Source of the DNA: Desulfobacteraceae bacterium
Lineage (GTDB): Bacteria > Desulfobacterota > Desulfobacteria > Desulfobacterales > Desulfosalsimonadaceae
Assembly: GCA_003599885.1 (NCBI GenBank)
Contig: QZKW01000087.1
Location: 1 to 63,940, forward strand
Reading direction: 5' to 3'
DNA length: 63,940 bases
The position numbers and the translations under genes are program-made. Each line of letters opens with the position of its first letter. The stretch's first letter is position 1. Shown here piece after piece: positions 26,303 to 44,336 of the stretch. A model generated the notes under the pieces. That model did not search any database and was not told the DNA's origin. It saw only the letters and a list, made by a program, of their open reading frames with translations.

Positions 26303-26989
26303 CTACTGTGACAAGCAGCAGTGTTTATATTTTTTACCGCTGCCGCAGGGACAGGGGGAATTGCGTCCCACACGTTCCGGTATGGCCTCCTTTTCTCTGG
26401 GAAAGGTTAACATGATTGCAGCAAGAAAAATCAGGACTGCTAAAAATTGTCTTCCCCCATTATTCAACGAATGGTTCCAGATTTCCCGGATATGGTTAAG
26501 CACGATGCTGTTGGATGAATAAACGGATTCGATGTCTGTTATAAAGATGATGGGATAATCCAGGCTGGAATGAATGAAAAGCATCGGGATGGATATCAGG
26601 CTTGCCTTGAGCCGCTGCTTAAGTCCCAGACCGGGCCACGCCAGTATGAGGGAAAAAACAATGATGGACGCGATGCAGATCGTACTGGCCTGTCCCTTTA
26701 ATCTGATTTTGGAACCTTTTTTTGCTGAACTGGCGGGATCGTCCGGCGTCTTATTCACTTGAAAGAGAAATTGAATATAATCCAGCTGATTGATTTTAGT
26801 GATGTCGTAGCTGAGCACCTTGTATTCGGGATGCAGCAGTTCAATTTCATTTTTAAATAATTTCAAATGGCCTTTGATATAAAAAGGGCCGATGAGATAA
26901 AAAATGGCAATGACAAACAGGCTGGCCGGGACCAGGCGGATAAAAAAGGATAAAAAAGCGACAGAATGCGATTTAGCTGGTTTTTCCAT
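26303..26989 (-). CDS. Exosortase H-associated membrane protein with C-terminal SEC-C zinc motif
   Basis: The 228-residue protein has membrane helices near residues 10-32, 100-120, 125-150 and 180-198 and an extracytoplasmic-looking stretch between the first two. The last 25 residues form a SEC-C motif (GRNSPCPCGSGKKYKHCC), the zinc-binding tail best known from SecA. It overlaps the exosortase gene by 17 bases and follows it, so both are made together. A membrane partner next to XrtH is known in other bacteria; the SEC-C tail on it is unusual as far as I know and may tie it to ribosomes or SecB-like partners. Confidence 0.72.
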   Translation of the reverse strand: MEKPAKSHSVAFLSFFIRLVPASLFVIAIFYLIGPFYIKGHLKLFKNEIELLHPEYKVLSYDITKINQLDYIQFLFQVNKTPDDPASSAKKGSKIRLKGQASTICIASIIVFSLILAWPGLGLKQRLKASLISIPMLFIHSSLDYPIIFITDIESVYSSNSIVLNHIREIWNHSLNNGGRQFLAVLIFLAAIMLTFPREKEAIPERVGRNSPCPCGSGKKYKHCCLSQ

Positions 26990-27509
26990 TTTTCCCCATT
27001 TGTAAATTCAACCAGCCGATAAAATAGATAAACGCCATAAAAATGATCATTGTCTGTCCCACATAAATATGCATCAGGTCGAACCATACCGGCTTGTATC
27101 GGAGTATGTAATACAGCCCGGCGATTCGGAACAGGTTTAAAATATATAAGACGAAGACGCCACCCAGAAGCCCGAATATTTTGGAGCGGATACCGGCCGG
27201 AAAAGCCAGGATCGCCGCAACAAGAATAATAATGCCCTCCATCCCCTCGCAGCCTCTGGCGATTTGGAGCTTGAAATTCCCGGAGCTGATATACTCATTT
27301 TGTGAAACGGTTTTTTCTGAAGGCATTACTATATTGATTAATTTTGACCCGCCGCCGGCCGTCAGGGTGTTGACGACAAAAGGGGAAAGGTAGGGTCTGG
27401 AAATGTAATGTGCGGTCTGAAACAGGAAGAAAAGCAAGCTGAATAAAAGAAAGAATCGTATTTCCCGGCGATAAGCGGATATGAGTGACGATGGATTCGA
27501 AGGTTTCAA
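26973..27509 (-). CDS. xrtH: Exosortase H, membrane cysteine transpeptidase
   Basis: Exosortases cleave C-terminal sorting signals of exported proteins and hand them on to the envelope. The 178-residue multi-pass protein has the three catalytic residues: Cys87 in ARGCEGMEG, Arg128 in LNLFRIAGLYY and His147 in DLMHIYVGQT. The short length fits the XrtH (IPTL-CTERM) group. No ATG is available near the start; TTG at 27509 behind GAGGAT is chosen. No protein with an IPTL-CTERM tail was seen in the window, so the substrates are encoded elsewhere. Confidence 0.84.
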   Translation of the reverse strand: MKPSNPSSLISAYRREIRFFLLFSLLFFLFQTAHYISRPYLSPFVVNTLTAGGGSKLINIVMPSEKTVSQNEYISSGNFKLQIARGCEGMEGIIILVAAILAFPAGIRSKIFGLLGGVFVLYILNLFRIAGLYYILRYKPVWFDLMHIYVGQTMIIFMAFIYFIGWLNLQMGKNGKTS

Positions 27510-31731: not shown

Positions 31732-32636
31732 TCGAGTTTGTATGATTTGAGCTTAACCAATTGAAATAATATATTATATATGGCTGACATATAATTAATT
31801 GAAATATTTAAAAATATAACTAGACATAACTATCTGATTATGCAATATAATAGGAATGGAACTTACAAACGAACAATGGAACAGGATACAGCCGCTGATC
31901 CAGGCGTCAACGCCACCGAAAGATCCGAGAGGGCGTAAACCAAGAGCTCCGCGAGCTGTATTAAATGGAATCCTATGGATATTGCGAACAGGAACACCCT
32001 GGCAAGATCTTCCGCCAAGGTACCCTCCATACCAGACCTGCCATAGACGTTTCCAGCAATGGGTGAGACAAGGTGTTTTCCGATCCATTGCCCATGAGCT
32101 TGCACAGGACCTGTTTGAACGAGGCGGCATTGATATCCGTGAAGCCTTTATCGACGGTACGTTTGTGCCGGCAAAAAAAGGGCTTTGCTGTCGGCAAGAC
32201 AAAGCGTGGCAAGGGCACCAAGATCATGGCAATCGCAGACGCTTCTGGTTTTCCTGTCGCCGTTCACATTGAGAGCGCTTCGCCTCATGAGGTAAAGCTG
32301 GTTGAAGCGACCATCGACTGCGGGTTTACTGAATATGCCCCTGCCAAGATTATTGGCGATAAGGCATATGACAGCGATGGGCTTGATCAGACTCTTTTTG
32401 ATGAACGCGGCATTAAAATGATTGCGCCCCATCGGAAAGGTCGGAAAAAGATAAAAACACAGGATGGCAGAAAACTTCGCCGCTATCGGAGACGCTGGAA
32501 AGTTGAACGCCTTTTTGCATGGTTGCAAAATTTCAGACGGTTGGTTGTTCGATATGAATACCATGCGGAAAACTTTCTCGCTTTTGTTCAGCTTGGGTGC
32601 TCGATAATTTTACTGCGTTTATTTTGAGATGACTTG
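31707..32636 (+). mobile_element. IS5-family insertion sequence, IS427-group type, 930 bp
   Basis: The element is bounded by imperfect inverted repeats: CAAGCCATCTCAAAAAAAAC at 31707 and, reading inward from 32636, CAAGTCATCTCAAAATAAAC. They differ at only 2 of 20 positions. A TA lies on each side (31705-31706 and 32637-32638), consistent with the 2-bp TA target duplication of the IS427 group. Inside is one transposase spread over two frames. It inserted into the TAA stop codon of the upstream DUF2520 gene. Confidence 0.85.
31856..32627 (+). CDS. IS5-family transposase in two overlapping frames
   Basis: Frame A (31856-32272) carries the helix-turn-helix part ([14 protein letters not shown]) and the first catalytic Asp in FIDGTFVPA. 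Frame B (open 32073-32627) carries the second Asp in [11 protein letters not shown] and the Glu in [15 protein letters not shown], completing the DDE triad. The switch is most likely at the run of seven A at 32173-32179, where the frames read AKKG and [17 protein letters not shown]. Joining them needs a net +1 shift or loss of one A. IS427-group elements often use frameshifting or slippage at such runs, so it may be functional; a simple mutation is also possible. Confidence 0.8.
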
Positions 32637-32764: not shown

Positions 32765-33886
32765 ATGGCGTTTAAGCGGCATCAGATAAACCGGCGGGTC
32801 ATCGACGATCTTAAAAGCCGGTCTACCATCGGCATGTATTTTTATATGGCCGTCACCATCGGCGTGTTGTCCGTCGATGGATTTTACAAAAGGCATTTCG
32901 CTTTTTCGGTCGCTTTTCTGGCTGCAATGACCTTTATCGCCATATTCCGGATTTCCCATTATTACCTGTTTGATAAAATTGAAAAGACGAGCCCCCGGTT
33001 AAACTTTATTGCATTTTTTGCCAGCGTGTTCGCCACGTCACTAACCTGGGGGCTGGGTTTTGCCTATTTTATGGTTCAGCCCGAAGAGTTGTCGTCAAAG
33101 ATCATTATGCTGGCAAGCACCGTCGGCCTGGATTCCGGTGGCGTCGTCGCTTTTATTCCATCATGGGGCACTTCCGCTCTGTATACGGTTATCATGCTGA
33201 TGCCTGCTGCGATTGCGCTGTCTTATTTTGGGGTGTATCCGGCGCTGGTTTTATTAATTATCCTGTTTATCGCATATATGATGATGATCGCCTTTCGGGG
33301 AAACCGTGAATACTGGAACGCTCTGGAAAATGAGTATCTTCTCAAGCAAAAAACTGAAGAGATCCAGAGAATCAGCCGGGTGGATGTGCTGACCGGCTTA
33401 TACAACCGGCGATACTTTGATGAGATTTTTAACATTCAATGGAAGGCGGCCGTCCGGAACAGCACGCCGATGACCATTGTCATCGCGGATATCGACCATT
33501 TCAAGCGGATCAACGACACCTATGGGCATCTTGCCGGAGACGCGTATCTGAAAAAAATCGCTGAATTGCTTGCCGGCATATTCAAGCGCGACACGGATTT
33601 CATCGCCCGTTATGGCGGAGAAGAGTTTGTCTTCCTTCTGGACGGTCTTGACAGGGACGCCGTCATTGCGCTTGCGGAAACAGTCCGTTCCGAAACCGGA
33701 AAAATGACGTTGTTTCATTATGATCATAAGATTCAGACGACCATCAGTTTAGGCATATCCTCTTGTGTTCCTCAGCCGAATGATCAAAAAGACCGTCTTT
33801 TCGAAAAGGCGGACAAAGCCATGTATCAGGCAAAAAACAGCGGCAGAAACCAAGTGGTTTTTTACTATGACGACAACAAGGGGTGA
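32765..33886 (+). CDS. Membrane-bound diguanylate cyclase
   Basis: The enzyme makes the second messenger c-di-GMP from two GTP. The 373-residue protein has about six membrane helices in the first 180 residues (a MASE-like sensor) and a GGDEF domain at about 195-368. The active site reads GGEEF, preceded by the RDTD sequence five residues upstream, which fits the inhibitory I-site RxxD. The DVLTGLYNRRYF and IADIDHFKRINDTYGH motifs are intact. It lies between the IS and the glycosyltransferase cluster and could control surface-polymer formation there, though it has its own 190-bp gap. Confidence 0.92.
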   Translation: MAFKRHQINRRVIDDLKSRSTIGMYFYMAVTIGVLSVDGFYKRHFAFSVAFLAAMTFIAIFRISHYYLFDKIEKTSPRLNFIAFFASVFATSLTWGLGFAYFMVQPEELSSKIIMLASTVGLDSGGVVAFIPSWGTSALYTVIMLMPAAIALSYFGVYPALVLLIILFIAYMMMIAFRGNREYWNALENEYLLKQKTEEIQRISRVDVLTGLYNRRYFDEIFNIQWKAAVRNSTPMTIVIADIDHFKRINDTYGHLAGDAYLKKIAELLAGIFKRDTDFIARYGGEEFVFLLDGLDRDAVIALAETVRSETGKMTLFHYDHKIQTTISLGISSCVPQPNDQKDRLFEKADKAMYQAKNSGRNQVVFYYDDNKG

Positions 33887-34078: not shown

Positions 34079-35242
34079 ATGAATATTCTCCTTTTAAATT
34101 ATGAATTTCCTCCCATTGGCGGCGGGGCAGGAAAAGCGACGCATAACCTGGCCAGAGAACTCGCCGGGCTTGGCCATAAAGTGGATGTGCTGACTTCGCG
34201 ATTAAAAAGTCAGCCGGCTAAAGAGGCTCTGGATGGGTTTACTGTTTACCGCGTGATGAGCTGGCGTAAAGGGATTCATGATTGCGGTTTTCGCGGGGCG
34301 CTTACCTATGTAATTTTTGCGATTTTTAAATTTCTGCAATTAACGCGGAAAAATAAATATGACGTGATTCATTACTTTTTCGGATTGCCCACCGGATTTT
34401 TGTCCCTGCTGCCCGGCCCCCAGGGAAAGACACCCTATATTCTCTCGCTTCGGGGATCCGATGTTCCCGGTTATGATCAGTACAATAAAACGCTTGAAAG
34501 GATTCACGGATTACTGGCGCCGTTAACCAGAAAGATATGGAGAAATGCTGAACAGGTCATTGCCCTGAGCGGAAGTCTGAAAGCGACAGCACTTCTGACA
34601 GCCCCTTCTCAAAAAATCCGGGTGATTCCAAACGGTGTAGATGCTCTTTTCCTGTCGCCCCTCCGTTTTTCCGACAGAGAGCAAAATGGTTTTAAAATGA
34701 TTGCCGTGGCAAGGCTCGTTGAGAGGAAAGGGCTTCAGGATGTGATAAAGGCATTGGCGCAGTTGCAGGCTCCTGATATTTCACTCCTGATTGTCGGAAC
34801 CGGGAATTATGAAAAAAAATTGAAAAAACTGTGCGATGATTTATTCCTTCAGGGCAGGGTTTCCTTTTATGGATTCTGTCACCCCCGGGAACTTCCGGAG
34901 TTGCTTGTCCAAAATAATGTTTTTATTCTGACCTCTCTTGCCGAGTCTTTTGGGACTGCGTTTGCCGAGGCCATGGCCTGCGGTCTGCCAGTGATTGCTT
35001 CCAACACCGGCGGAATCCCCGATTTTGTGAACAGTGAAAATGGTATCCTGGTGGAACCCGGCAATATCGATCAGATAAAGACCGCTATTTTAAAGATGAA
35101 ATCCTCTCCTGACCTGAGAGCCGAAATGCAGCGGATTAACCGGGAGAAAATGATTCAGCAGTTTAGCTGGGGAAGTATCGCACGACAGCATGTCGCAATT
35201 TATGAAAAGGGGAGAGAGCCTTCGGCGTTATGTTCTTCCTGA
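34079..35242 (+). CDS. GT4-family glycosyltransferase
   Basis: The 387-residue protein has the GT-B fold of family 4: the N-terminal PPIGGGAGKATHNLARELAGLGHKVDVLT region (glycine loop GGGAGK), the linker IPNGVD, then AVARLVERKGLQDVIKAL, SLAESFGTAFAEAMACGLPVIASNTGG with the E-X7-E nucleotide-sugar motif and NGILVEPGN. The donor sugar and acceptor cannot be told. It is cytoplasmic, probably membrane-associated. It is the first gene of an eight-gene same-strand cluster and overlaps the next by 13 bases. Confidence 0.92.
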   Translation: MNILLLNYEFPPIGGGAGKATHNLARELAGLGHKVDVLTSRLKSQPAKEALDGFTVYRVMSWRKGIHDCGFRGALTYVIFAIFKFLQLTRKNKYDVIHYFFGLPTGFLSLLPGPQGKTPYILSLRGSDVPGYDQYNKTLERIHGLLAPLTRKIWRNAEQVIALSGSLKATALLTAPSQKIRVIPNGVDALFLSPLRFSDREQNGFKMIAVARLVERKGLQDVIKALAQLQAPDISLLIVGTGNYEKKLKKLCDDLFLQGRVSFYGFCHPRELPELLVQNNVFILTSLAESFGTAFAEAMACGLPVIASNTGGIPDFVNSENGILVEPGNIDQIKTAILKMKSSPDLRAEMQRINREKMIQQFSWGSIARQHVAIYEKGREPSALCSS

Positions 35243-36531
35243 TTCCTGAAGTTTTTCAGATGAAAAAGCATCTCCGGTCTCCAAGGAAAAATCTGGATCG
35301 CCTGCGTCTATGCTTATTTAAGAAACAGATGCGAAATATTTATGAGAATGTTCCGTATTATCGTGAAATATTTCAAAGGCTGAATATCGTTCCGGAAGAT
35401 TTCAAACATATTGATGATATCCAAAAGCTCCCCATTGTTTCCAAAAAAGACATTAATGGCAATTTGAACATATTTTTAAATGAAAACATAGAGTTGTGGG
35501 ATTGTTATAAAAGCCATACCAGCGGATCGACCGGTCAGCCTTTTTTGACTTATTTTGATAAAAAAAGCTGGATCCGGAAAAAATATCTGTCCAAGCTGCG
35601 CGCCAGAATGGCCTGCGGCATGCGCCCCGGAGAGCGGGTGGCTGTCTTTGAATCCGAGCTTTCCGGACAACTGGAATCCCGGAACAGGAAACATCCGCTT
35701 CAGCAGTTTTTTTTGAAGATAAAATATTTTTCAATATTTGATGATGTGGCAGCGGCCATAGAACATCTCATCGCATTTAGGCCGCAAAACGTTTATGGCC
35801 CGCAAAGCTTTTTGTTCCATCTTGCACGGGGCATAAAAAAGACCGGGCGGACGCTTCCTTTTTTAAAAAGGGTTTATACGAGCGCTGAATACCGTGAGAG
35901 TAGCGTTACCCAGTTTATAAAGGATGTTCTGAAGGTCGAGGTTTACGATATCTATGGCTCGACGGAATTTAAGGAAGTGGCATGGGAATGTGAACGGCAT
36001 CAAGGATATCATATCAACGAGGATGAGGTCCTGTGTGAAATTTTAGATGGCGGCAAACCGGCACCCATCGGCGAAGTCGGAGACATCGTCCTGACTGATT
36101 TGAAAAATACAGCCATGCCGCTCATCCGGTACCGGATTCATGATCGGGGTAAACTGCTTCAGGCCCCTTGCCGTTGCGGTCGAACTTTTTCGATCATGCT
36201 GCCGGTTGGCGGCAGGGCTTCGGAGTATATCCTGCTGCCGGACGGCGAAAGAATTTCACCCTACCGTTTTACGACGGCCATCGAAAAGTTTAAAGGTCTT
36301 CTGCAATATCAATTGATTCAAGAATCGGAAACAGACCTGTTTGTCAATGTGATAATAGATTCCAATGTCGGGAATGAAACTTGCCGGAATATCGAAGAAA
36401 CCATAATAAATATTACCAGGGGCCAGATGCGGGTTATTGTCCGGAAAACCGAAAGGATATTGCCGGAAGAAAATGGCAAATTTAAAGTCGTTAAAAATAT
36501 GCTCCTGAAGACCCATTCATTGGTGCAATAA
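35230..36531 (+). CDS. PaaK/CapK-like adenylate-forming enzyme (first copy)
   Basis: The 433-residue protein belongs to the phenylacetate-CoA ligase-like branch of adenylating enzymes, often called CapK when found in capsule loci. The P-loop-like SHTSGSTGQPFLTYF lies at about residues 94-108. A later IYGSTEFKEVAWEC and the MPLIRYRIHDRGKL motif are typical, followed by a zinc-like CRCGR pair. It probably activates a carboxylic acid as acyl-AMP, perhaps for transfer to a sugar or amine. ATG at 35230 overlaps the glycosyltransferase; ATG at 35260 is an alternative. Confidence 0.85.
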   Translation: MFFLIPEVFQMKKHLRSPRKNLDRLRLCLFKKQMRNIYENVPYYREIFQRLNIVPEDFKHIDDIQKLPIVSKKDINGNLNIFLNENIELWDCYKSHTSGSTGQPFLTYFDKKSWIRKKYLSKLRARMACGMRPGERVAVFESELSGQLESRNRKHPLQQFFLKIKYFSIFDDVAAAIEHLIAFRPQNVYGPQSFLFHLARGIKKTGRTLPFLKRVYTSAEYRESSVTQFIKDVLKVEVYDIYGSTEFKEVAWECERHQGYHINEDEVLCEILDGGKPAPIGEVGDIVLTDLKNTAMPLIRYRIHDRGKLLQAPCRCGRTFSIMLPVGGRASEYILLPDGERISPYRFTTAIEKFKGLLQYQLIQESETDLFVNVIIDSNVGNETCRNIEETIINITRGQMRVIVRKTERILPEENGKFKVVKNMLLKTHSLVQ

Positions 36532-36557
36532 TTTGAGAAATCTAAACGGGTCCATTG

Positions 36558-37406
36558 ATGAGAGATATACCCAATAAAAAGTTCATTTTAAATTTTACTC
36601 CCACCGGCATGATTCCGACAAAACAAATGACACCGCATGTGCCGGTTCAGCCCGAAGAAATTGTTCGGCAGGTCCTGGAGGCAGCGGAGCTCGGGGTCAA
36701 CATGGCGCATCTTCATGCCCGTGATCCCCTGACGGAAGCGCCGACCTTTAAAAAAGAAATTTATGGCGAAATCATCAGCGGCATTCGAAAATATAACAAA
36801 AGTTTGGTTGTCGGTGTATCAACCAGCGGAAGAACGTTTAATGATTTTCAAAAAAGATCCGAGTGCCTGGAGTTAAAAGGCGACGCGAAACCGGATTTTG
36901 GAAGCCTGACGCTGAGCTCATTGAATTTCAACAATCAGGCGAGTATCAATCCTCCGGAAATGATCCGGCAGCTTGCGGGAAAAATGCTGGAGTCAGGGAT
37001 TAAGCCGGAGCTTGAAGCATTTGATCTCGGAATGATCAACTATGCAAAATATTTAATCCGCAAGGGGCAGATCAAAGCGCCGTATTATTTTAACCTGATT
37101 CTGGGAAACATAGCATGTGCCCAGCCGAATATGCTGAACCTGGGATTGATGGTCAATGACTTGCCGGAGGGTTCTATATGGTCGGCCGGCGGCATTGGTG
37201 ACTGGCAGTTGCAGATGAACGCCATGGCCATTGTCTCCGGCGGCGGTGTTCGTGTGGGGCTTGAAGATAATATCTATTTTGATCAGGAAAGAACCCGGCT
37301 CGCCTTAAACCGGGAACTGGTGGAACGGGTTCTTTCGATTGCCAAATCACTGGATAAAATTCCGTATTCTCATAAGGAAGCCCGAAAACTTCTATTGGGG
37401 AAATAA
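36558..37406 (+). CDS. Beta-keto acid cleavage enzyme (BKACE, DUF849)
   Basis: BKACE enzymes use zinc to condense a beta-keto acid with acetyl-CoA, giving acetoacetate and a new CoA ester. The founding member, Kce, is in lysine fermentation. The 282-residue TIM-barrel protein has FTPTGMIPTKQMTPHVPV, the zinc histidines in AHLHARDP (His51, His53) and the closing SGGGVRVGLEDN signature. A TTG one codon upstream is not needed. Its position inside a glycosyltransferase and CapK-like cluster is unusual; it might supply an acyl-CoA or run a related condensation there. Confidence 0.88.
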   Translation: MRDIPNKKFILNFTPTGMIPTKQMTPHVPVQPEEIVRQVLEAAELGVNMAHLHARDPLTEAPTFKKEIYGEIISGIRKYNKSLVVGVSTSGRTFNDFQKRSECLELKGDAKPDFGSLTLSSLNFNNQASINPPEMIRQLAGKMLESGIKPELEAFDLGMINYAKYLIRKGQIKAPYYFNLILGNIACAQPNMLNLGLMVNDLPEGSIWSAGGIGDWQLQMNAMAIVSGGGVRVGLEDNIYFDQERTRLALNRELVERVLSIAKSLDKIPYSHKEARKLLLGK

Positions 37407-37428
37407 ACAGGAGGCTGCAGCATCATCA

Positions 37429-38055
37429 ATGTTTGATTTGAATAAATACCGGATAAAATACCGATACAGCCATTCCCTGCGTCTTTTTTTTGATGCAATG
37501 TCCAAGTTCGGAATCCGCATCGCTCCTTATTATACTTTTCGGGAAAGGATTTCTTCGTTAAAGACGCCGACACTGTCCAAAGAATTAGAGCATTGTAAAA
37601 TCAGTTTTTTGGGACCGGAAGATATCCGGGCCATGGCGAAAATTCCTGGCAGGAAATTTTCAGAAGCAGACCTTCTGAAACGGTTCAATGAAGGGCAGAA
37701 ATGTCTGGGAATGAAAAAAGGCGGCGCAATTATCGCATTTAACTGGTGCAACTTCAAAGAACTGACATTTAAATGGCACCGGATGCCGCTTGGAAAAAAT
37801 GAAGCATTCATGTTTGATGCCTATACCCTTCCGGATTACCGGGGAAAAGGGATCGCGCCTTTCTTACGGCACCATTTCTACAAGGAGCTTGAAAAAATAA
37901 GTATAACAAGACTTTACAGTTATACGGATTATTTCAATACACCGGCTGTAAAATTTAAGCTCAAACTCGGTGCCGAAAAAGAAAAACTGAATCTCTACAT
38001 TGTGCTTTTCAATAAATGGCCGTTTCATTTTATTTTAAAAGATTATCAAAAATGA
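37429..38055 (+). CDS. GNAT-fold acetyl/acyltransferase
   Basis: The 208-residue protein has the acyl-CoA pocket of GNAT enzymes in DAYTLPDYRGKGIAPFLRHHF (RGKGIA loop) with LYSYTDYFNTPAVKFKLKLGAEK as the C-terminal helix region. The first 80 residues are basic and do not match a known domain. The start MFDLNKYR follows an AGGAGG about 15 bases upstream; a longer frame overlapping the BKACE gene was rejected. It overlaps the next gene by four bases (ATGA). The likely role is acylation of an amino group on the cluster's product. Confidence 0.75.
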   Translation: MFDLNKYRIKYRYSHSLRLFFDAMSKFGIRIAPYYTFRERISSLKTPTLSKELEHCKISFLGPEDIRAMAKIPGRKFSEADLLKRFNEGQKCLGMKKGGAIIAFNWCNFKELTFKWHRMPLGKNEAFMFDAYTLPDYRGKGIAPFLRHHFYKELEKISITRLYSYTDYFNTPAVKFKLKLGAEKEKLNLYIVLFNKWPFHFILKDYQK

Positions 38056-39236
38056 AAAAACTGGAAAAACCTTCTATGAAAGTGCTGGTAACCGGCGCCA
38101 CGAGAAATTCCTGCATGGCGGTCATCCGAGGTCTTTCGCAAAAAAGGTGCGAAATAGTCGGTGCTGATGAAAGAAGCCTGCCTTTTAAAATGCATTCCCG
38201 CTACACCGGGCCTTATTATTCTTACCCTCCCGGTTATGGTGACGATTTTGTGGACGCCATCATTAAAATCGTTCAAAAGGAAAAACCGGATGTGTTTCTG
38301 CCGGTTGCCGGAACAAAAGAAATTTCAAAACACAGGCAATTGATTGAACGATATACGAACGTTCTTCTGCCGGACTATGAAAATTATATGACCGCATTTG
38401 ACAACCATCTGACCCTTGAGGCGTGCAGAAAACTCCATATCGGGTGCCCGAATATCCGGCATGAAAAGGATGTGCTTCATGAACTCGAAAATAACAGAAA
38501 CAGGCAAAATCCGGTTCGTTTTGTCTTAAAGCCCCGGTCGGATATTGGCGGGTCAAGGGGGCTTGGCATTTTTCATGATGAAAAATCCTTCCATCACTAT
38601 AAAAAGGCGGGCGAAAAATACGGAGAAGCATTTATTACCGAATACATTCCCGGTCCCACTTCCAATATGCGGACCGTGAACCTGCTGTTTGATCAGAACA
38701 GCGAACTGATAGCCTCTTTTACCACCCGGAAAATCCGTCAGTGGCCAAATTCCGGAGGTATCAGCGCTTTAACCGTCAGCACACATGAACCGGATCTGGT
38801 CGATTTTATTCTGCCTTTTTTTAAAAAATACCGATGGCAGGGGTTTGCCGAGGCTGAAATTAAAATTGACGAAAGAGACGGCATGCCGAAACTGATTGAA
38901 ATCAACCCGAGATTTTGCGGGTATATCGGGTTCCCCATCCAGTGCGGCGTCAATTTTCCATGGGTTATGTGTCAGCTGATAACCGGGAAGAGGCGGCCTC
39001 AAATGCCAGCCTATTCCTCAGGCATCAAATACATCCACTGGCCCACATATCTGAAAGCCGCATATTCCGAATGGCGGGAGAATAGAAACAGAAAAGAATT
39101 TTTCAGCAAAATACGCGAAGAAATCAAAGGGAAAAAAGTTTCCAATAACATGGAATGGCAGGACTTGAAAATTATTGCGGCCAAAATGATCTTTGAGCTT
39201 TTAGACAGAGGAAAATCATCTGATGTGTGGAATTAG
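38052..39236 (+). CDS. ATP-grasp ligase
   Basis: The 394-residue protein has a pre-ATP-grasp Rossmann-like N-terminus (VLVTGATRNSCMAVIRGLSQ) and an ATP-grasp domain from about residue 115. FVLKPRSDIGGSRG is the nucleotide lysine loop and LIEINPRFCGYIGFPI the metal-binding loop. Such carbamoyl-phosphate-synthase-like ATP-grasp proteins join a carboxylate to an amine through an acyl phosphate. The substrate is unknown. It overlaps the GNAT gene upstream and the AsnB gene downstream (14 bases), consistent with one operon. Confidence 0.85.
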   Translation: MKKLEKPSMKVLVTGATRNSCMAVIRGLSQKRCEIVGADERSLPFKMHSRYTGPYYSYPPGYGDDFVDAIIKIVQKEKPDVFLPVAGTKEISKHRQLIERYTNVLLPDYENYMTAFDNHLTLEACRKLHIGCPNIRHEKDVLHELENNRNRQNPVRFVLKPRSDIGGSRGLGIFHDEKSFHHYKKAGEKYGEAFITEYIPGPTSNMRTVNLLFDQNSELIASFTTRKIRQWPNSGGISALTVSTHEPDLVDFILPFFKKYRWQGFAEAEIKIDERDGMPKLIEINPRFCGYIGFPIQCGVNFPWVMCQLITGKRRPQMPAYSSGIKYIHWPTYLKAAYSEWRENRNRKEFFSKIREEIKGKKVSNNMEWQDLKIIAAKMIFELLDRGKSSDVWN

Positions 39237-41118
39237 CGGATTCGTCCATCCGGATCCGTATCAGCCGGTTGACATGGGCATCCTCCGGCGGATGACCGAT
39301 ATTATGCGCCATCGGGGGCCGGATGGAGAAGGCTTTTACAGCGGACCGGGGGCCGGGCTCGGATTTCGCCGGTTAAGCATTATTGACCTTGAAACCGGCG
39401 ATCAGCCGTTATCCAATGAAAACGGCTCTCTGGAGCTGATTTGCAACGGAGAAATATACAATTATGTAGAACTTCGTAAAACGCTGGTGCAAAAAGGGCA
39501 TTTTTTTCAGACAAAATCAGACGCAGAAGTCATTGTCCATTTGTATGAAGATTATGGAGTGGAGTGTCTGACTCATTTGCGGGGGATGTTTGCGTTTGCA
39601 CTCTGGGATACTGATAAGCAGCAGCTGTTTTTAGCGAGGGATCGCCTGGGTATAAAACCCATTCATTACGCTGTCGCCAAAGACGGCACCCTGTACTTTG
39701 CTTCCGAACAGAAATCCATCCTCATCTCGGATCAGATACAACGGGATGTAAATGCCCAGGCCTTTCAAGACCTCTTTACCTTCGGATTTATCCTGGCACC
39801 CAAAACACTTTTTCAGCATATCCATAGCGTTCCGCCGGGGCATTATGTCTTATACAAACACGGCAAAGTCTCCATAAGTCGTTACTGGAATCTGTCCTTT
39901 CCGGAAAAAGACAACAGGAGGGCAGATTCTGAAGACGTCTGGGTTGAGAGATTGCGGGAAAAACTGAAAGAAGTGGTTTCGCTGCATATGCAAAGCGATG
40001 TGCCGGTTGGGGCCTGGTTAAGCGGTGGCATTGATTCGAGCGCTGTGGTCTCACTGATGAGAGGCTTTACTGATATCCCCGTTCATACTTTTTCGCTGGG
40101 ATTTGACGATTCTCCTCATTTTGATGAAGTGACGTCTCAAAAAACGCTGGATAAATTCCCGGGATTTGATTTTCCCAATGAACGGGTTGCCTTTAACCAA
40201 AGCCATTTTGATTTTTTTTTAAAAGGGATATGGCATCATGAAGACCCGACGTCTTCAGGCAATCATGCCACACGGATGCTGCTGGCGCAAGCATCCGCTA
40301 GCCGATTTAAAGTAGTGCTGACCGGTGAAGGTGCGGATGAGGTTTTCGGCGGATATCCCTGGTACCGGTTCAATGCATTATTAAGACCCTTTGCTGTTTT
40401 GCCGAGATCCATGCGCCGTATGATGCTCCAATTAACAGGGACTTTGAAACAACGACCCTGGTCCAGCAGCGTTTTTCTGGCGCCCCATAAAATGAATTTA
40501 AACCGTTATGCTGATTTTTTAGGCGCATTCGGGCGCGAAAATATAATGGATGGTGTGCTTTCGGACCAGTGGCGAAATCACATATCCGATAATCCGAACA
40601 ATTATTTGAGTGTCACTGATTTTGATTTGTATGATCACTGGCACGACTTTGAAAAAATTCAGTACATGGAAACCAAAACGCGTCTGGCAGATTATATTGT
40701 CCGTGGCCTGGACCGCTCAACCATGGCGTATTCCCTTGAGGCCCGGGTCCCTTTTTTAGATCACGAACTTGTCGAGCTCTGCACCCAAATTCCGCCGTCA
40801 CTGAAAATGAAATATCTGAAAGAGAAATATATTTTTCGAAAGTCCATGGCAAACCACCTGCCGCCCGAAATCACATGGCGGAAAAAACGGGGACTGGCTG
40901 CCCCCAACAGTGATTGGCTAAGATCCGAACTCCCTGAACACATAAAATATTATTTTTCGGAACCCCAGTTAAGAAAAAAAGGCTATTTCAAGCCCCCGAT
41001 TGTCCGGCAATTATTAAACCAGCACCGCGAAGGTCAGGGGGATTTTTCAAGGGCGCTGATGGTTATTCTCAGCGTACAGATATGGGACGACCTTTTCATT
41101 CAAGGCTGCAAACCGTAA
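39223..41118 (+). CDS. asnB: Asparagine synthetase-like glutamine amidotransferase
   Basis: The 631-residue protein has the class II glutaminase domain with the N-terminal nucleophile Cys2 (MCGISGF), RHRGPDGEG and CNGEIYNY. The synthetase domain has the PP-loop SGGIDSS (about residues 267-273) and LTGEGADEVFGGY. Its length and style resemble the AsnB homologues of exopolysaccharide and PEP-CTERM loci rather than the housekeeping enzyme. It probably adenylates a carboxylate and amidates it with ammonia from glutamine. It overlaps the ATP-grasp gene and lies nine bases before the second CapK-like gene. Confidence 0.92.
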   Translation: MCGISGFVHPDPYQPVDMGILRRMTDIMRHRGPDGEGFYSGPGAGLGFRRLSIIDLETGDQPLSNENGSLELICNGEIYNYVELRKTLVQKGHFFQTKSDAEVIVHLYEDYGVECLTHLRGMFAFALWDTDKQQLFLARDRLGIKPIHYAVAKDGTLYFASEQKSILISDQIQRDVNAQAFQDLFTFGFILAPKTLFQHIHSVPPGHYVLYKHGKVSISRYWNLSFPEKDNRRADSEDVWVERLREKLKEVVSLHMQSDVPVGAWLSGGIDSSAVVSLMRGFTDIPVHTFSLGFDDSPHFDEVTSQKTLDKFPGFDFPNERVAFNQSHFDFFLKGIWHHEDPTSSGNHATRMLLAQASASRFKVVLTGEGADEVFGGYPWYRFNALLRPFAVLPRSMRRMMLQLTGTLKQRPWSSSVFLAPHKMNLNRYADFLGAFGRENIMDGVLSDQWRNHISDNPNNYLSVTDFDLYDHWHDFEKIQYMETKTRLADYIVRGLDRSTMAYSLEARVPFLDHELVELCTQIPPSLKMKYLKEKYIFRKSMANHLPPEITWRKKRGLAAPNSDWLRSELPEHIKYYFSEPQLRKKGYFKPPIVRQLLNQHREGQGDFSRALMVILSVQIWDDLFIQGCKP

Positions 41119-41127
41119 GGCAAACGG

Positions 41128-42414
41128 ATGATAAATAATAAATATTTGCACCTCATTCAATTAATGCGAAACGAGCGGTGCCCTTTGGAAGAACTTCGCA
41201 GCATTCAAAATAAGAAGCTGAAACGGCTCGTCCGTCATGCATACCATCATATTCCTTTTTACCGGAACCAATTCCGGAAAATCAACCTCCATCCGGATGA
41301 CATCCGGACAGTTGATGATTTATATAAAATCCCCATCATCGATAAGGCTGATTTTTATAAATATCCTTTTTCATATTTTCTTGATGACCGGATTAAATCC
41401 TTTGAAAAATTGATCCGGATCAACACTTCCGGTTCCAGCGGACAGATTTTACAATTTTTTGTCGACCAGCGCTATAATCAGTTGAGAAAAGCCCAGTTTT
41501 TAAGGCCGTATATGACCAACGGTTGCGGATTGATGGATCGCACGGTATGGTTCCGGGGACGGCCGGAGGCAAAACAGATGCTTCACCAGAAGCTCGGACT
41601 CCTTAAGGATCACCAGTTTTATTCAGGCCTTGACCCGGATTTTCAGATACAATTGGTCCAGAAAATAAGGCCTAAGGTGATGCGGGGATATGGCTCAACA
41701 TTTCAACTGATGGCTTCCAGAATTCTGGAAAAAGGGATTGCCGTCCATTCCCCGCGATTGATTTTTACGGATTCTGAAATGTTAAACGATAATTCCAGGC
41801 GAAAAATCGAAACCGCGTTTCAGGCGGAAGTAATTGATGTTTACGGCACTTTTGAAACCGAAAATATCGCTTATGAATGCCGGAAGCACAATGGGTATCA
41901 TATGGCCGTTGACTGCGTGATTATGGAATTTTTAAAAGACGGAATTCCTGTGAAACCGGGAGAAGAAGGTGAAATCATATGCACGGTTCTGGATAATTTT
42001 ACATTCCCGTTTATCCGTTACAATCTCCACGATTTGGGATCTTGGCTGGACAGACCGTGCACCTGCGGCCGGACGTTTCCCTTGATGAAAACAATCTCAG
42101 GCAGGACCTCTCATTATTTTAAAAAGCGGGATGGATCAAAAATTTCATCCATCTCGATTACCTCTCATATGTGGCATTTAGGACAATATATTCATGAATT
42201 CCAGATTATTCAGAAAGCCACGGATCTTTTTTTATTGCTCATTGTCCCGTCCTGTTTTTTTTCAGAAAAGATACAAAAAGAAATTGAAAAACTCATGTAT
42301 AAGGACTTCCCGTATGCAACGATCCGAATCCGGCTGGTGGATCATATCGAAAGGGAAAAATCCGGAAAGTTATTAGATTTCAAACCATTTCTTGAAAAGC
42401 AGAATAATAAATGA
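41128..42414 (+). CDS. PaaK/CapK-like adenylate-forming enzyme (second copy)
   Basis: The 428-residue protein is a diverged paralogue of the enzyme at 35230. It shares the N-terminal PFYRNQFRKINLHPDDIRTVDDL pattern, the INTSGSSGQILQFF loop (about residue 97), DVYGTFETENIAYEC and FPFIRYNLHDLG, and the CTCGR pair. The two copies probably activate different acids. It overlaps the radical SAM gene by four bases. Two such enzymes in one operon suggest a product with two acyl groups, or successive activation steps. Confidence 0.84.
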   Translation: MINNKYLHLIQLMRNERCPLEELRSIQNKKLKRLVRHAYHHIPFYRNQFRKINLHPDDIRTVDDLYKIPIIDKADFYKYPFSYFLDDRIKSFEKLIRINTSGSSGQILQFFVDQRYNQLRKAQFLRPYMTNGCGLMDRTVWFRGRPEAKQMLHQKLGLLKDHQFYSGLDPDFQIQLVQKIRPKVMRGYGSTFQLMASRILEKGIAVHSPRLIFTDSEMLNDNSRRKIETAFQAEVIDVYGTFETENIAYECRKHNGYHMAVDCVIMEFLKDGIPVKPGEEGEIICTVLDNFTFPFIRYNLHDLGSWLDRPCTCGRTFPLMKTISGRTSHYFKKRDGSKISSISITSHMWHLGQYIHEFQIIQKATDLFLLLIVPSCFFSEKIQKEIEKLMYKDFPYATIRIRLVDHIEREKSGKLLDFKPFLEKQNNK

Positions 42415-43418
42415 GTATTGTCCCACGGCAATTTCTTGAAGAAGCCCGGAGGCTTGTATTTAAAGGCAAAACCTCAGAATCGCGGGCATATCATGCGATC
42501 CGGCATTTTAAACGCTCCGGTAAAATTTTTCCGCTCAAGCCCGAATCCATTCAAATTCAGACCCATTCCTTTTGCAATGGCCGCTGCCTGTATTGCCCAT
42601 ATCCTGAGCTGAGCCATAAACTTAATCAGGGGAAGATGGACCGGGAACTGATTCTTAAAATAGCCGATGAAGTGACAAAATGGGACACGCTTCGCCAGGT
42701 CATGTTGATGCTGCAGAACGAGCCCTTGCTGGATAAGGATTTTTTTGAAACGATCAAATATTTTAAAATTCTTAACCCCCGGCTCAACCTTGCCACGGTT
42801 ACCAACGGCACCTTGCTGAATCCATCTGTCATTGAACAGATCCTTAACAGCAGTCTGGATGAACTGATGATCAGTCTGGATGCCTTCTCAAAGCAAACCT
42901 ATGAAAAACTGCATCCCGGGTTTTCATTTGAAAAGATACTGAATTCGATTCGTCTGCTTTCACAGCTTAAGACTGATCGCTTGTCTGTAAAGTTAAGTTT
43001 TGTCCTCACCCGTCAAAATCATGGAGAGCTGCCCGGTTTTATAAACTTTGCCCAAAATAATCGTATGGGATGGCGGGTGATGCATGTGTTGAACCGGGCA
43101 AATAATGTTAATAATTATAACGAATTTCGTTTCTCCCGATTGACATGGAAATCGTTAAAACTCCGGTTGATCTATAAATATTTTTATCGGGCCTGTGCGC
43201 TTCCTTTTAGCAATATGAGCGTTTTGTTTAACGGTGATGTCCTGATTTGCTGCAATGACTGGCACCGAAAGGCGGTTATCGGAAATGTAAACAGCGAGTC
43301 GCTTGATCAGATATGGAACGGAGAGATGATGAATTATCTGCGGAAGCAAATCATACAAAAAAGGTACCGCGAGATATCTGCCTGTTCTCAGTGTACGCTT
43401 GCACAACTCTGTTTGTAA
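42411..43418 (+). CDS. Radical SAM protein with C-terminal SPASM-like cysteines
   Basis: The 335-residue protein has the [4Fe-4S]-SAM motif CNGRCLYC (CX3CX2C, Cys55, Cys59, Cys62) and a TIM-barrel core (LMISLDAFSKQTYEKLHPG). A C-terminal tail carries cysteines in LICCNDWHRKAVIGN, SACSQC and QLCL, a SPASM-like auxiliary cluster site. These enzymes modify peptides, sugars or amino acids by radical chemistry. The DQIWNGEMM segment is frequent in SPASM proteins of polysaccharide loci. It is the last gene of the cluster. No precursor peptide gene was seen next to it. Confidence 0.87.
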   Translation: MSIVPRQFLEEARRLVFKGKTSESRAYHAIRHFKRSGKIFPLKPESIQIQTHSFCNGRCLYCPYPELSHKLNQGKMDRELILKIADEVTKWDTLRQVMLMLQNEPLLDKDFFETIKYFKILNPRLNLATVTNGTLLNPSVIEQILNSSLDELMISLDAFSKQTYEKLHPGFSFEKILNSIRLLSQLKTDRLSVKLSFVLTRQNHGELPGFINFAQNNRMGWRVMHVLNRANNVNNYNEFRFSRLTWKSLKLRLIYKYFYRACALPFSNMSVLFNGDVLICCNDWHRKAVIGNVNSESLDQIWNGEMMNYLRKQIIQKRYREISACSQCTLAQLCL

Positions 43419-43649: not shown

Positions 43650-44336
43650 ATGAGCAGTCATATTCCCGACGTAGACGAAGTGGCCCCGGACTTTAAAGTG
43701 CTAATGGCCAGTGGTGAAGAGTTCCGGCTCAAGACCGCTTTAAAAAATACCCACTACATCATGCTGATCTTTTACCGCGGCCATTGGTGACCCTTCTGTA
43801 TCCGTCAGTTGGCGGAAATCAAAAAACAGTACGCCGATATCATAAAATATAAAACACGGGCTTATGCCATATCCGTTGACTCTCCGAAACAGTCACGGGC
43901 GGTGGCCTCTGAAATGATGCTGCCGTTTGATCTGCTCTGCGATGTGGACAAGCAAGTCATTCAGCTGTACGGTCTGGTCAACCCGTTTGAACATGGCGGC
44001 ATCGCACGGCCTGCCATATTTATTATCAATCCGGGCGGCAAAATCTGCTACCGGTCTATTGACGGAACGGCCCAGCGGGTTGACCTGACCCATGTCTTAA
44101 ATTTTCTGAAAGCCCATTATGTCAACCCGGATCTGACCAATAAGGAAAAGGTTGACAAGAAATGGATTGTCCCGTCCTGGGGAACCACCCGGCAGATTGT
44201 AAAAAACATGATATTGAGGGGGAACCAGGCGGACTGGAAACACTATGGCCTGTTTCCACTCAGCCCCATCATCATTCCATTGAAGAAATTGAAACGGAAA
44301 ATGGAGAAAAAAGGCAAATCAGCCAATCCGTCCTGA
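43650..44336 (+). CDS. Prx-like selenoprotein with UxxC redox motif
   Basis: The thioredoxin-fold AhpC/TSA-like protein reads through an in-frame TGA at 43788-43790. The context is FYRGHW-U47-PFC50, where relatives have WCPxC, so the TGA replaces the first redox cysteine, the usual sign of selenocysteine. The frame is open and conserved on both sides: VAPDFKVLMASGEEF before; DSPKQSRAVASEMMLPFDLLCD and ARPAIFIINPGGKICYRS after. The full length is 228 residues. A hairpin stands 10 bases behind the TGA. The start follows GAAAGGA. It likely reduces peroxides or disulfides. The C-terminus is basic. A decayed gene is possible but less likely. Confidence 0.85.
43801..43816 (+). promoter_or_regulatory. 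Candidate bacterial SECIS hairpin
   Basis: TCCGTC pairs with GGCGGA (one G-U) around the loop AGTT, 10 bases behind the UGA. The loop is about 16 bases from the UGA and contains the G-U expected in bacterial SECIS elements. It lies within coding sequence, as bacterial SECIS elements do. Folding was done by eye. Confidence 0.55.

Follow-up and report, generated by a model that had tools for sequence, protein, structure and literature searches.

Distinct clade of DUF849 (BKACE) enzymes encoded next to varying N-acyltransferases, and its eight-gene operon in a Desulfobacteraceae bacterium

In a 63,940-nucleotide contig of a Desulfobacteraceae bacterium (QZKW01000087.1, assembly GCA_003599885.1; hereafter, the window), eight forward-strand genes at positions 34079-43418 are predicted to form a single operon, the third gene of which encodes a beta-keto acid cleavage enzyme of the DUF849 family (BKACE). 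The main new result of our analysis, and the one worth following, is that the clade to which this BKACE belongs is encoded, across phyla, next to N-acyltransferases of varying types. When an enzyme that makes an acyl-CoA is encoded beside an N-acyltransferase, the second most simply uses the product of the first. We therefore propose, tentatively and at slightly under an even chance, that the whole clade supplies a dedicated acyl-CoA to an interchangeable N-acyltransferase, yielding an undescribed N-acyl group on surface glycans or small amides, and that the eight-gene operon would be the most elaborate form of this system, with an amide-chain-decorated glycoconjugate as its product. The cross-phylum pairing was invisible to the initial annotation of the window because it requires comparative data.

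The BKACE of the window (36555..37406, starting with TTG at 36555 or ATG at 36558) scores 264.9 bits against PF05853, well above the curated cut-off of 24.8. In a tree built by a quick method under LG+G4 from 82 members of the clade plus 42 controls, the clade is separated by one branch (SH-aLRT 100, stem length 0.88), so that, by sequence, the window protein is placed in a distinct, well-supported clade of DUF849. Residues H52, H54, E237, R233, D238 and E154 are invariant in all 81 aligned clade rows and in 42/42 controls, and S89 is kept in 78 of the 81 clade rows, with Thr in the remaining 3; these we take to be the Zn-ligand and catalytic positions. The motifs HLHARD and RVGLEDN, presumably of functional meaning, are present. 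Twelve further positions (S91, R93, T119, S121, S130, N162, Y163, Y166, N180, N185, Q190 and N222) are identical in 81/81 clade rows and unlike most controls. The match to the 3-keto-5-aminohexanoate cleavage enzyme (Kce) model NF052387 reaches 225.2 bits, below the equivalog cut-off of 382, and Glu14 of Kce (2Y7D), in what we take to be the published numbering, aligns with Ile20 of the window protein, with an offset of 6 deduced from the His ligands. Thus, the substrate of the clade likely differs from that of Kce. In the BKACE reaction as described in excerpts of PMC11961710 and PMC12871164, acetoacetate and a new acyl-CoA arise from acetyl-CoA and a beta-keto acid, and the window BKACE is predicted to catalyze such an acetyl-CoA-dependent cleavage. 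The initial annotation had called it a condensing enzyme, which is only one possible direction of BKACE chemistry.

Scanning genomes for BKACE, we obtained 188 pattern stretches and 147 relatives; the top 80 relatives, picked on BKACE alone, were retained. With the window included, an acyltransferase gene is located within 1.5 kb of the BKACE gene in 70 of the 81 clade loci (on the same strand and within 200 bp in 64), compared to 0/46 control loci, all detected with the same four acyltransferase models, which were built from the target loci themselves and hence introduce circularity. One of the controls (L138) proved on the tree to be a clade member without a partner, and the like-for-like comparison is 70/82 vs 0/45. 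Pfam adds N-acyltransferases in four more clade loci, on the same strand in L041 and L073 and on the opposite strand in L086 and L108, raising the count to 74/82; of the remaining loci, two (L055 and L084) stop at a contig edge. A test free of circularity is provided by the next downstream open reading frame (ORF) of the control BKACEs, available in 39 of the 45 and scanned with Pfam at an E-value of 0.01 in all 39: an N-acyltransferase was found in 0/39, and five of these ORFs (L020, L123, L127, L141 and L146) had no Pfam match. Of 80 clade loci, 51 encode a GNAT or PglD-like protein in the ORF that follows BKACE downstream.

The partner is not always the same protein. The main GNAT type, that of the window, accounts for 47 of the 82 clade loci, NeuD/PglB/VioB (VioB/PglD)-like hexapeptide proteins for 17, two remote GNAT-like types for 4 and 2, and others for 4, AAC(3)-like ones included. 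On the clade tree, the partner changes state 16 times (with 'none' counted as a state), and replacement of the partner while the reaction type stays is good evidence of a functional link. Of the main-type GNATs, nine were scanned with Pfam: six score above the cut-off, one (L048) just under it, and two have no match. In the remote f35 type (n = 4), one member (L096) has no acyltransferase match and another (L082) barely passes (21.4 vs 20.7), and the type aligns with the main GNAT type by hhalign (96%). Clade BKACEs beside an N-acyltransferase carry 17 phylum labels, mostly from metagenome-assembled genomes (MAGs) and including archaeal ones, a count that binning errors may inflate given that many of the loci are MAG contigs. 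In one locus (L063:10830-12244), a single BKACE gene is followed by two GNAT genes in tandem, both belonging to the same cluster. In L116, a single ORF covers the C-terminal part of BKACE together with GNAT; this apparent fusion was not used because the BKACE is also frame-split upstream, so that an assembly error is equally likely.

The genomic setting of the pair offers clues to the acceptor. Around hexapeptide partners, the neighbors are often amino-sugar genes, and dTDP-4-amino-4,6-dideoxygalactose (dTDP-Fuc4N) transaminases score above the cut-off of 375 in L049 (535.5 bits), L076 (431.7) and L111 (465.6), with related transaminases below the cut-off in L090, L112 and L075, the last having a BKACE without a partner. 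On the NeuD/PglB/VioB model, the L068 hexapeptide partner reaches 159.9 (cut-off 160.8). L090 also has a WbqC-type gene, to whose cluster genes in L106 and L110 belong as well. The source genome itself encodes a WecE-type transaminase (C8:9432-10547, 566.5 bits), and the sole acyltransferase recognized by eye among ORFs of at least 130 residues in C8:1-20000 is PseH-like, within an apparent pse gene set. In five Flagellimonas-type loci (L057, which is Flagellimonas flava DSM 22638, L059, L064, L065 and L070), the pair stands alone between opposite-strand genes, and in other Flavobacteriaceae it lies amid genes that look housekeeping by eye. The 3,5-dihydroxyhexanoyl group of Flavobacterium psychrophilum was considered as a BKACE product and rejected, that locus being predicted, in the excerpted part of PMC6519341, to rely on an acyl carrier protein (ACP), ketoacyl-ACP synthases and a reductase.

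Besides the circularity of the four models and the possible binning errors, several observations weigh against the scheme favored below, in which the BKACE product is transferred to an amine of a glycoconjugate, most likely of an amino sugar. Six clade members (L061, L067, L075, L079, L085 and L138) lack a partner, and in L086, L108 and three of the four f35-type loci the partner is on the opposite strand. Several control loci are cut near BKACE by contig ends, and the controls contain groups of near relatives. The pair is isolated from sugar genes in several Flavobacteriaceae, and there is no transaminase within the eight operon genes. The AlphaFold model of the window GNAT is about equally close to many GNATs, with WecD at rank 25. 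In all 81 clade rows, position 156 is Phe, aligning, by our reading, with a Tyr that, according to the consulted part of PMC12871164, is proposed to be catalytic and stated to be present in all BKACE sequences, and the same source has a Phe there accompanying different chemistry in BsfD. The controls have Phe in 29, Tyr in 12 and Trp in 1 (n = 42), so that, among these sequences, Tyr is not a family-defining feature. Finally, of the 50 clade genomes searched (drawn from the 80 loci), just 8 have WecE above the cut-off, and the genome of L042, the other bearer of all eight genes, is not one of them; given this scarcity and absence, dTDP-Fuc4N cannot be the general acceptor. The WecE pathway as a universal source of the acceptor is thus weakened, and, judging from gene content, the acceptor must vary or be another compound.

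All eight ORFs of the operon were confirmed in the window. The first encodes a GT4-family glycosyltransferase (34079..35242; Glycos_transf_1, 143.6 bits; NCBIfam matches under cut-off), the only glycosyltransferase that Pfam recognizes among the eight. It is followed by CapK1, a PaaK/CapK-like adenylate-forming ligase (35230..36531; match to the PaaK-type PDB structure 4r1l, 1e-32), BKACE, a GNAT-family N-acyltransferase (37429..38055; PF00583, 32.4 bits), a stand-alone ATP-grasp ligase (38052..39236; ATPgrasp_Ter, 35.8 bits), an AsnB-like glutamine amidotransferase (39223..41118), a second PaaK/CapK-like ligase, CapK2 (41128..42414), and a radical SAM/SPASM enzyme (42411..43418; 78.5 and 56.4 bits for the two domains). 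Start codons were corrected to Met 37429 for GNAT and Met 38052 for ATP-grasp, the ATGA of the latter overlapping the GNAT stop. With these starts, the successive junctions are -13, +23, +22, -4, -14, +9 and -4 bp, in line with the initial annotation, which had already predicted one operon from the eight same-strand genes. Scans for promoters and terminators gave no usable signal (24 promoter-like sites vs 17.4 expected and 21 terminator-like sites vs 12.4 expected), and Rfam yielded no matches over the window. The G+C content of the cluster is 0.447, compared to 0.502 in the remainder of the window, and 9.34-kb stretches sampled from other parts of the window go down to 0.483 at the lowest; this low G+C is a hint at, though no proof of, horizontal transfer.

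The family assignments of the initial annotation hold, with the CapK-like pair under the cut-offs: CapK1 and CapK2 reach 19.5 and 18.7 bits on Pfam AMP-binding (cut-off 29.9), and the top NCBIfam match of both is the PaaK-like DVU_1553 family (157.7 and 123 bits, equivalog cut-off 300). What we take to be the adenylation motifs are intact in both ligases, namely TSGST, YGSTE and YRIHDRG in CapK1, and YGTFE as the YG motif of CapK2, which a stricter pattern missed. AsnB keeps Cys2 and SGGIDSS, presumably its functional residues, and matches Asn_synthase (289.9 bits) and TIGR01536 (484.8 bits, cut-off 267.1), being one of three proteins of the source genome that pass the latter. The radical SAM/SPASM protein has CNGRCLYC, an instance of the presumed CxxxCxxC signature, and CCNDW. 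GNAT contains RGKGIA, presumably a functional motif; its structural model (mean predicted local distance difference test score, pLDDT, 90.4) has a GNAT fold, from which the acceptor cannot be called, the matches being scattered over tandem GNATs, glucosamine N-acetyltransferase, MshD and WecD. GNAT has no match below 0.01 in PDB by sequence (the best is 0.013) and none in NCBIfam at 0.001. The ATP-grasp protein has a PRK12767-like match under the cut-off and no PDB match by sequence at 0.01; its model, built from 5 sequences (mean pLDDT 74.7), resembles carbamoyl-phosphate-synthase, biotin-carboxylase and PylC folds (Foldseek: 2pn1, 6.3e-17; PylC 4ffl, 1.5e-13).

The scheme that we favor, and that we regard as evenly balanced between right and wrong, is that the operon serves to make an unusual N-acyl or amide decoration and to attach it to an amine-bearing glycoconjugate. 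From acetyl-CoA and a beta-keto acid, BKACE would produce acetoacetate together with a dedicated acyl-CoA, whose acyl group the GNAT encoded directly after BKACE would move onto an amine, most likely that of an amino sugar. GT4 would put a sugar onto its acceptor, the two CapK-like enzymes would adenylate carboxylic acids, the ATP-grasp enzyme would make a further amide, AsnB would amidate a carboxylate, and the radical SAM/SPASM enzyme would modify the product. What the data show directly is the content and order of the genes, their intact motifs, the separateness of the BKACE clade and its recurrent pairing with N-acyltransferases that vary; the direction of the reaction, all substrates, an amino sugar as acceptor, and what follows and in which order are inferred. 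A dedicated pathway to an acyl- or aminoacyl-modified glycan or small amide, as initially annotated, is still the best reading; that outline was right but unspecific, and is partly supported here.

The complete gene set is found in only one further locus among the 80, that of a Desulfobacterales MAG (L042), in the order GT4, CapK1, BKACE, GNAT, radical SAM, ATP-grasp, AsnB and CapK2, the last being cut by the contig end. Subsets recur in several other loci. L038 has GT4, CapK1, BKACE, GNAT, ATP-grasp and radical SAM, with a remote CapK-like gene upstream, and a 58-residue match to the C-terminal part of CapK2 (55% identical) overlaps the end of ATP-grasp and reaches radical SAM, which we read as a relic of the window's gene order. 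Six of the eight genes are in L039, with a relocated ATP-grasp (46% identical), and L116 has GT4, CapK1, the split BKACE, GNAT, a FemAB-like gene and a cut AsnB. In a gammaproteobacterial MAG (L040), the series is GT4-CapK-BKACE-GNAT, and a Nitrospirota MAG (L045) has the same genes reordered, both sets being then followed by a gene that clusters with the FemAB-like gene of L116. A Nanobdellota-labelled MAG (L072) combines GT4, CapK, BKACE, a different GNAT, a remote ATP-grasp (22% identity) and CapK. Identity is 62-71% for GT4 in L038, L039, L042 and L116, and 53-76% for radical SAM in the first three of these. Within 6 kb of BKACE in the 80 loci, CapK occurs 10 times, GT4 7, ATP-grasp 4, AsnB 4 and radical SAM 3 times. 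Of the genes whose order the initial annotation proposed to search for in other Desulfobacterota, subsets recur in loci of that type (L038, L039, L042 and L116) and also in L045 and L040, and the whole set only in L042.

Among 36 genomes of the family, the source genome included, a BKACE ortholog (at least 72% identity) is present in 6, and an ATP-grasp ortholog (at least 47%) in 5, all inside the 6 with BKACE and one of them (G031) broken; the chance value for this co-occurrence (1.6e-5) presumes independent genomes, which is untrue here. In G031, one alignment of the ATP-grasp homolog (C367:661-1814) contains 9 in-frame stops and a second, overlapping alignment contains none, and a 34-residue relic of the ATP-grasp C-terminus lies near AsnB (C65:6981-7073); these remains may be either decay or assembly errors in this relative. 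Upstream of the operon in L038 (2069-3115) and L039 (886-1947), a protein is encoded that by eye resembles the butirosin BtrH N-terminal family. The insertion site could not be defined, as six stretches from the genus at the phosphoglucomutase flank held only that gene among the window genes tested; two of the six additionally had weak histidine-kinase matches.

The main rival to a decorated glycoconjugate, unlikely but deserving serious attention, is a free small amide of the N-acyl-amino-acid or osmolyte kind without a glycan, in which GNAT would acylate an amino acid, ATP-grasp would form a peptide bond, AsnB would amidate, and GT4 would add one sugar. The combination of GNAT, ATP-grasp and AsnB follows what we take to be the logic of N-acetylglutaminylglutamine amide (NAGGN) synthesis, AsnB scores 380.3 bits on TIGR03104, the pair lies outside sugar loci in several Flavobacteriaceae, and there is a single glycosyltransferase. 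However, the TIGR03104 score is below the cut-off of 570.1 and TIGR03108 is closer (529.4), GNAT lacks an NCBIfam match, and clade BKACEs are found beside sugar transaminases in several loci. In the favored scheme as well, one glycosyltransferase with neither flippase nor polymerase argues for a small molecule or glycolipid over a polymer.

The Phe at position 156, aligned with that of BsfD in the available part of PMC12871164, raises the prospect that the window BKACE is instead a BsfD-like condensing enzyme giving a beta-diketone or another C-C product, amidated by other enzymes, and the clade-specific polar residues (S91, R93, T119, S121, S130, N162, Y163, N180, N185 and N222) are compatible with this. 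We consider it improbable: Phe is common in ordinary BKACEs, alignment to BsfD leaves 14 gap positions in the window protein in the loop around residues 91-107, and the usual N-acyltransferase partner would better suit acyl-CoA release. A degree less probable still is an ordinary O-antigen or exopolysaccharide cluster with all gene roles known. Polysaccharide loci commonly contain GT4, TIGR03108-like AsnB, CapK-like and ATP-grasp genes, L041 and L046 appear polysaccharide-like by eye, and a phosphoglucomutase gene, also by eye, lies just downstream of the operon on the other strand. Yet genes for a flippase, a polymerase or a priming transferase, as well as sugar-nucleotide genes, are all absent from the eight by Pfam, the flanks at 22-34 and 44-48 kb show by eye no polysaccharide genes apart from the phosphoglucomutase, and AsnB is below the TIGR03108 cut-off. 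That the genes are chance neighbors without a shared pathway is hardly credible, for although all eight recur in only one other locus, the junctions overlap, subsets recur in several genomes, and the CapK2 relic of L038 lies just before radical SAM. Neither of the two outcomes that the initial annotation named as refuting a shared pathway, genes rarely found together or a known O-antigen pathway, was thus observed.

A diguanylate cyclase (GGDEF) is indeed encoded upstream (32765-33886, 192 bp before GT4), as the initial annotation pointed out, but is not a conserved partner: a GGDEF match appears in 1/80 related loci (L053, 67 bits), many of these loci being short contigs. A transposase that looks IS5-like by eye (31856-32627, +), in two overlapping frames, precedes the operon by about 1.5 kb. 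An exosortase/archaeosortase-like ORF lies 6.6 kb upstream (26973-27509, -; PF09721 at 27012-27443, 32.6 bits vs cut-off 25.7), and the ORF after it (26303-26989) ends, by eye, with a SEC-C-like Cys motif. Downstream, an AhpC/TSA-family ORF (43650-44336, +; Pfam match on the 3' part) has an in-frame TGA at residue 47 (RGHW-TGA-PFC), where its relatives have Cys; this is likely a selenoprotein.

The operon is real, partly conserved, and without a described counterpart in the open-access literature searched, as the initial annotation anticipated. Among the papers listed there, titles and opening parts of abstracts showed nothing tying BKACE to an N-acyltransferase or a glycan locus, and no paper matched FemAB with exosortase and PaaK-like ligases. 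The characterized BKACEs that are known to us are catabolic, e.g. in lysine fermentation (PMC4922564, in the part consulted). If the proposal is true, the BKACE family would gain a new physiological role, and there would be a further way to make modified amino sugars or small amides. That the clade is mostly encoded beside an N-acyltransferase makes for a testable prediction, i.e. trace the acyl-CoA and find the amide, and the stand-alone pair in named Flavobacteriaceae strains provides a two-gene assay system.

Compared with known systems, the window BKACE shares PF05853 and the presumed Zn-ligand and catalytic positions with Kce, and differs in the sub-threshold NF052387 score, Ile20 in place of Glu14, the clade-specific residues and the usual N-acyltransferase neighbor. 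The NAGGN pathway likewise brings together GNAT, ATP-grasp and AsnB-type enzymes, whereas the window adds BKACE, CapK, GT4 and radical SAM and its AsnB falls short on TIGR03104. The exopolysaccharide loci of the XrtA/PEP-CTERM type have an AsnB that the window enzyme resembles, and CapK-like and FemAB-like genes recur in loci related to the operon; however, the TIGR03108 score is 529.4 against a cut-off of 816.9, and the exosortase-like ORF lies 6.6 kb off on the opposite strand. Wzx/Wzy O-antigen clusters differ in their flippase and polymerase, both missing from the eight genes. According to excerpts of PMC12871164, flavophos BsfD is, similarly, a DUF849 enzyme in a biosynthetic cluster with Phe at the aligned position, but it acts in a phosphonate pathway for which those excerpts name no acyltransferase, and its loop insert is missing from the window protein. 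A similar design is that of the R-group of the F. psychrophilum O-polysaccharide, where, in the accessible part of PMC6519341, acyl synthesis is predicted beside a PglD-type N-acyltransferase acting on a 4-amino sugar; there, the acyl group is predicted to come from ACP, ketoacyl-ACP synthases and a reductase, with no BKACE.

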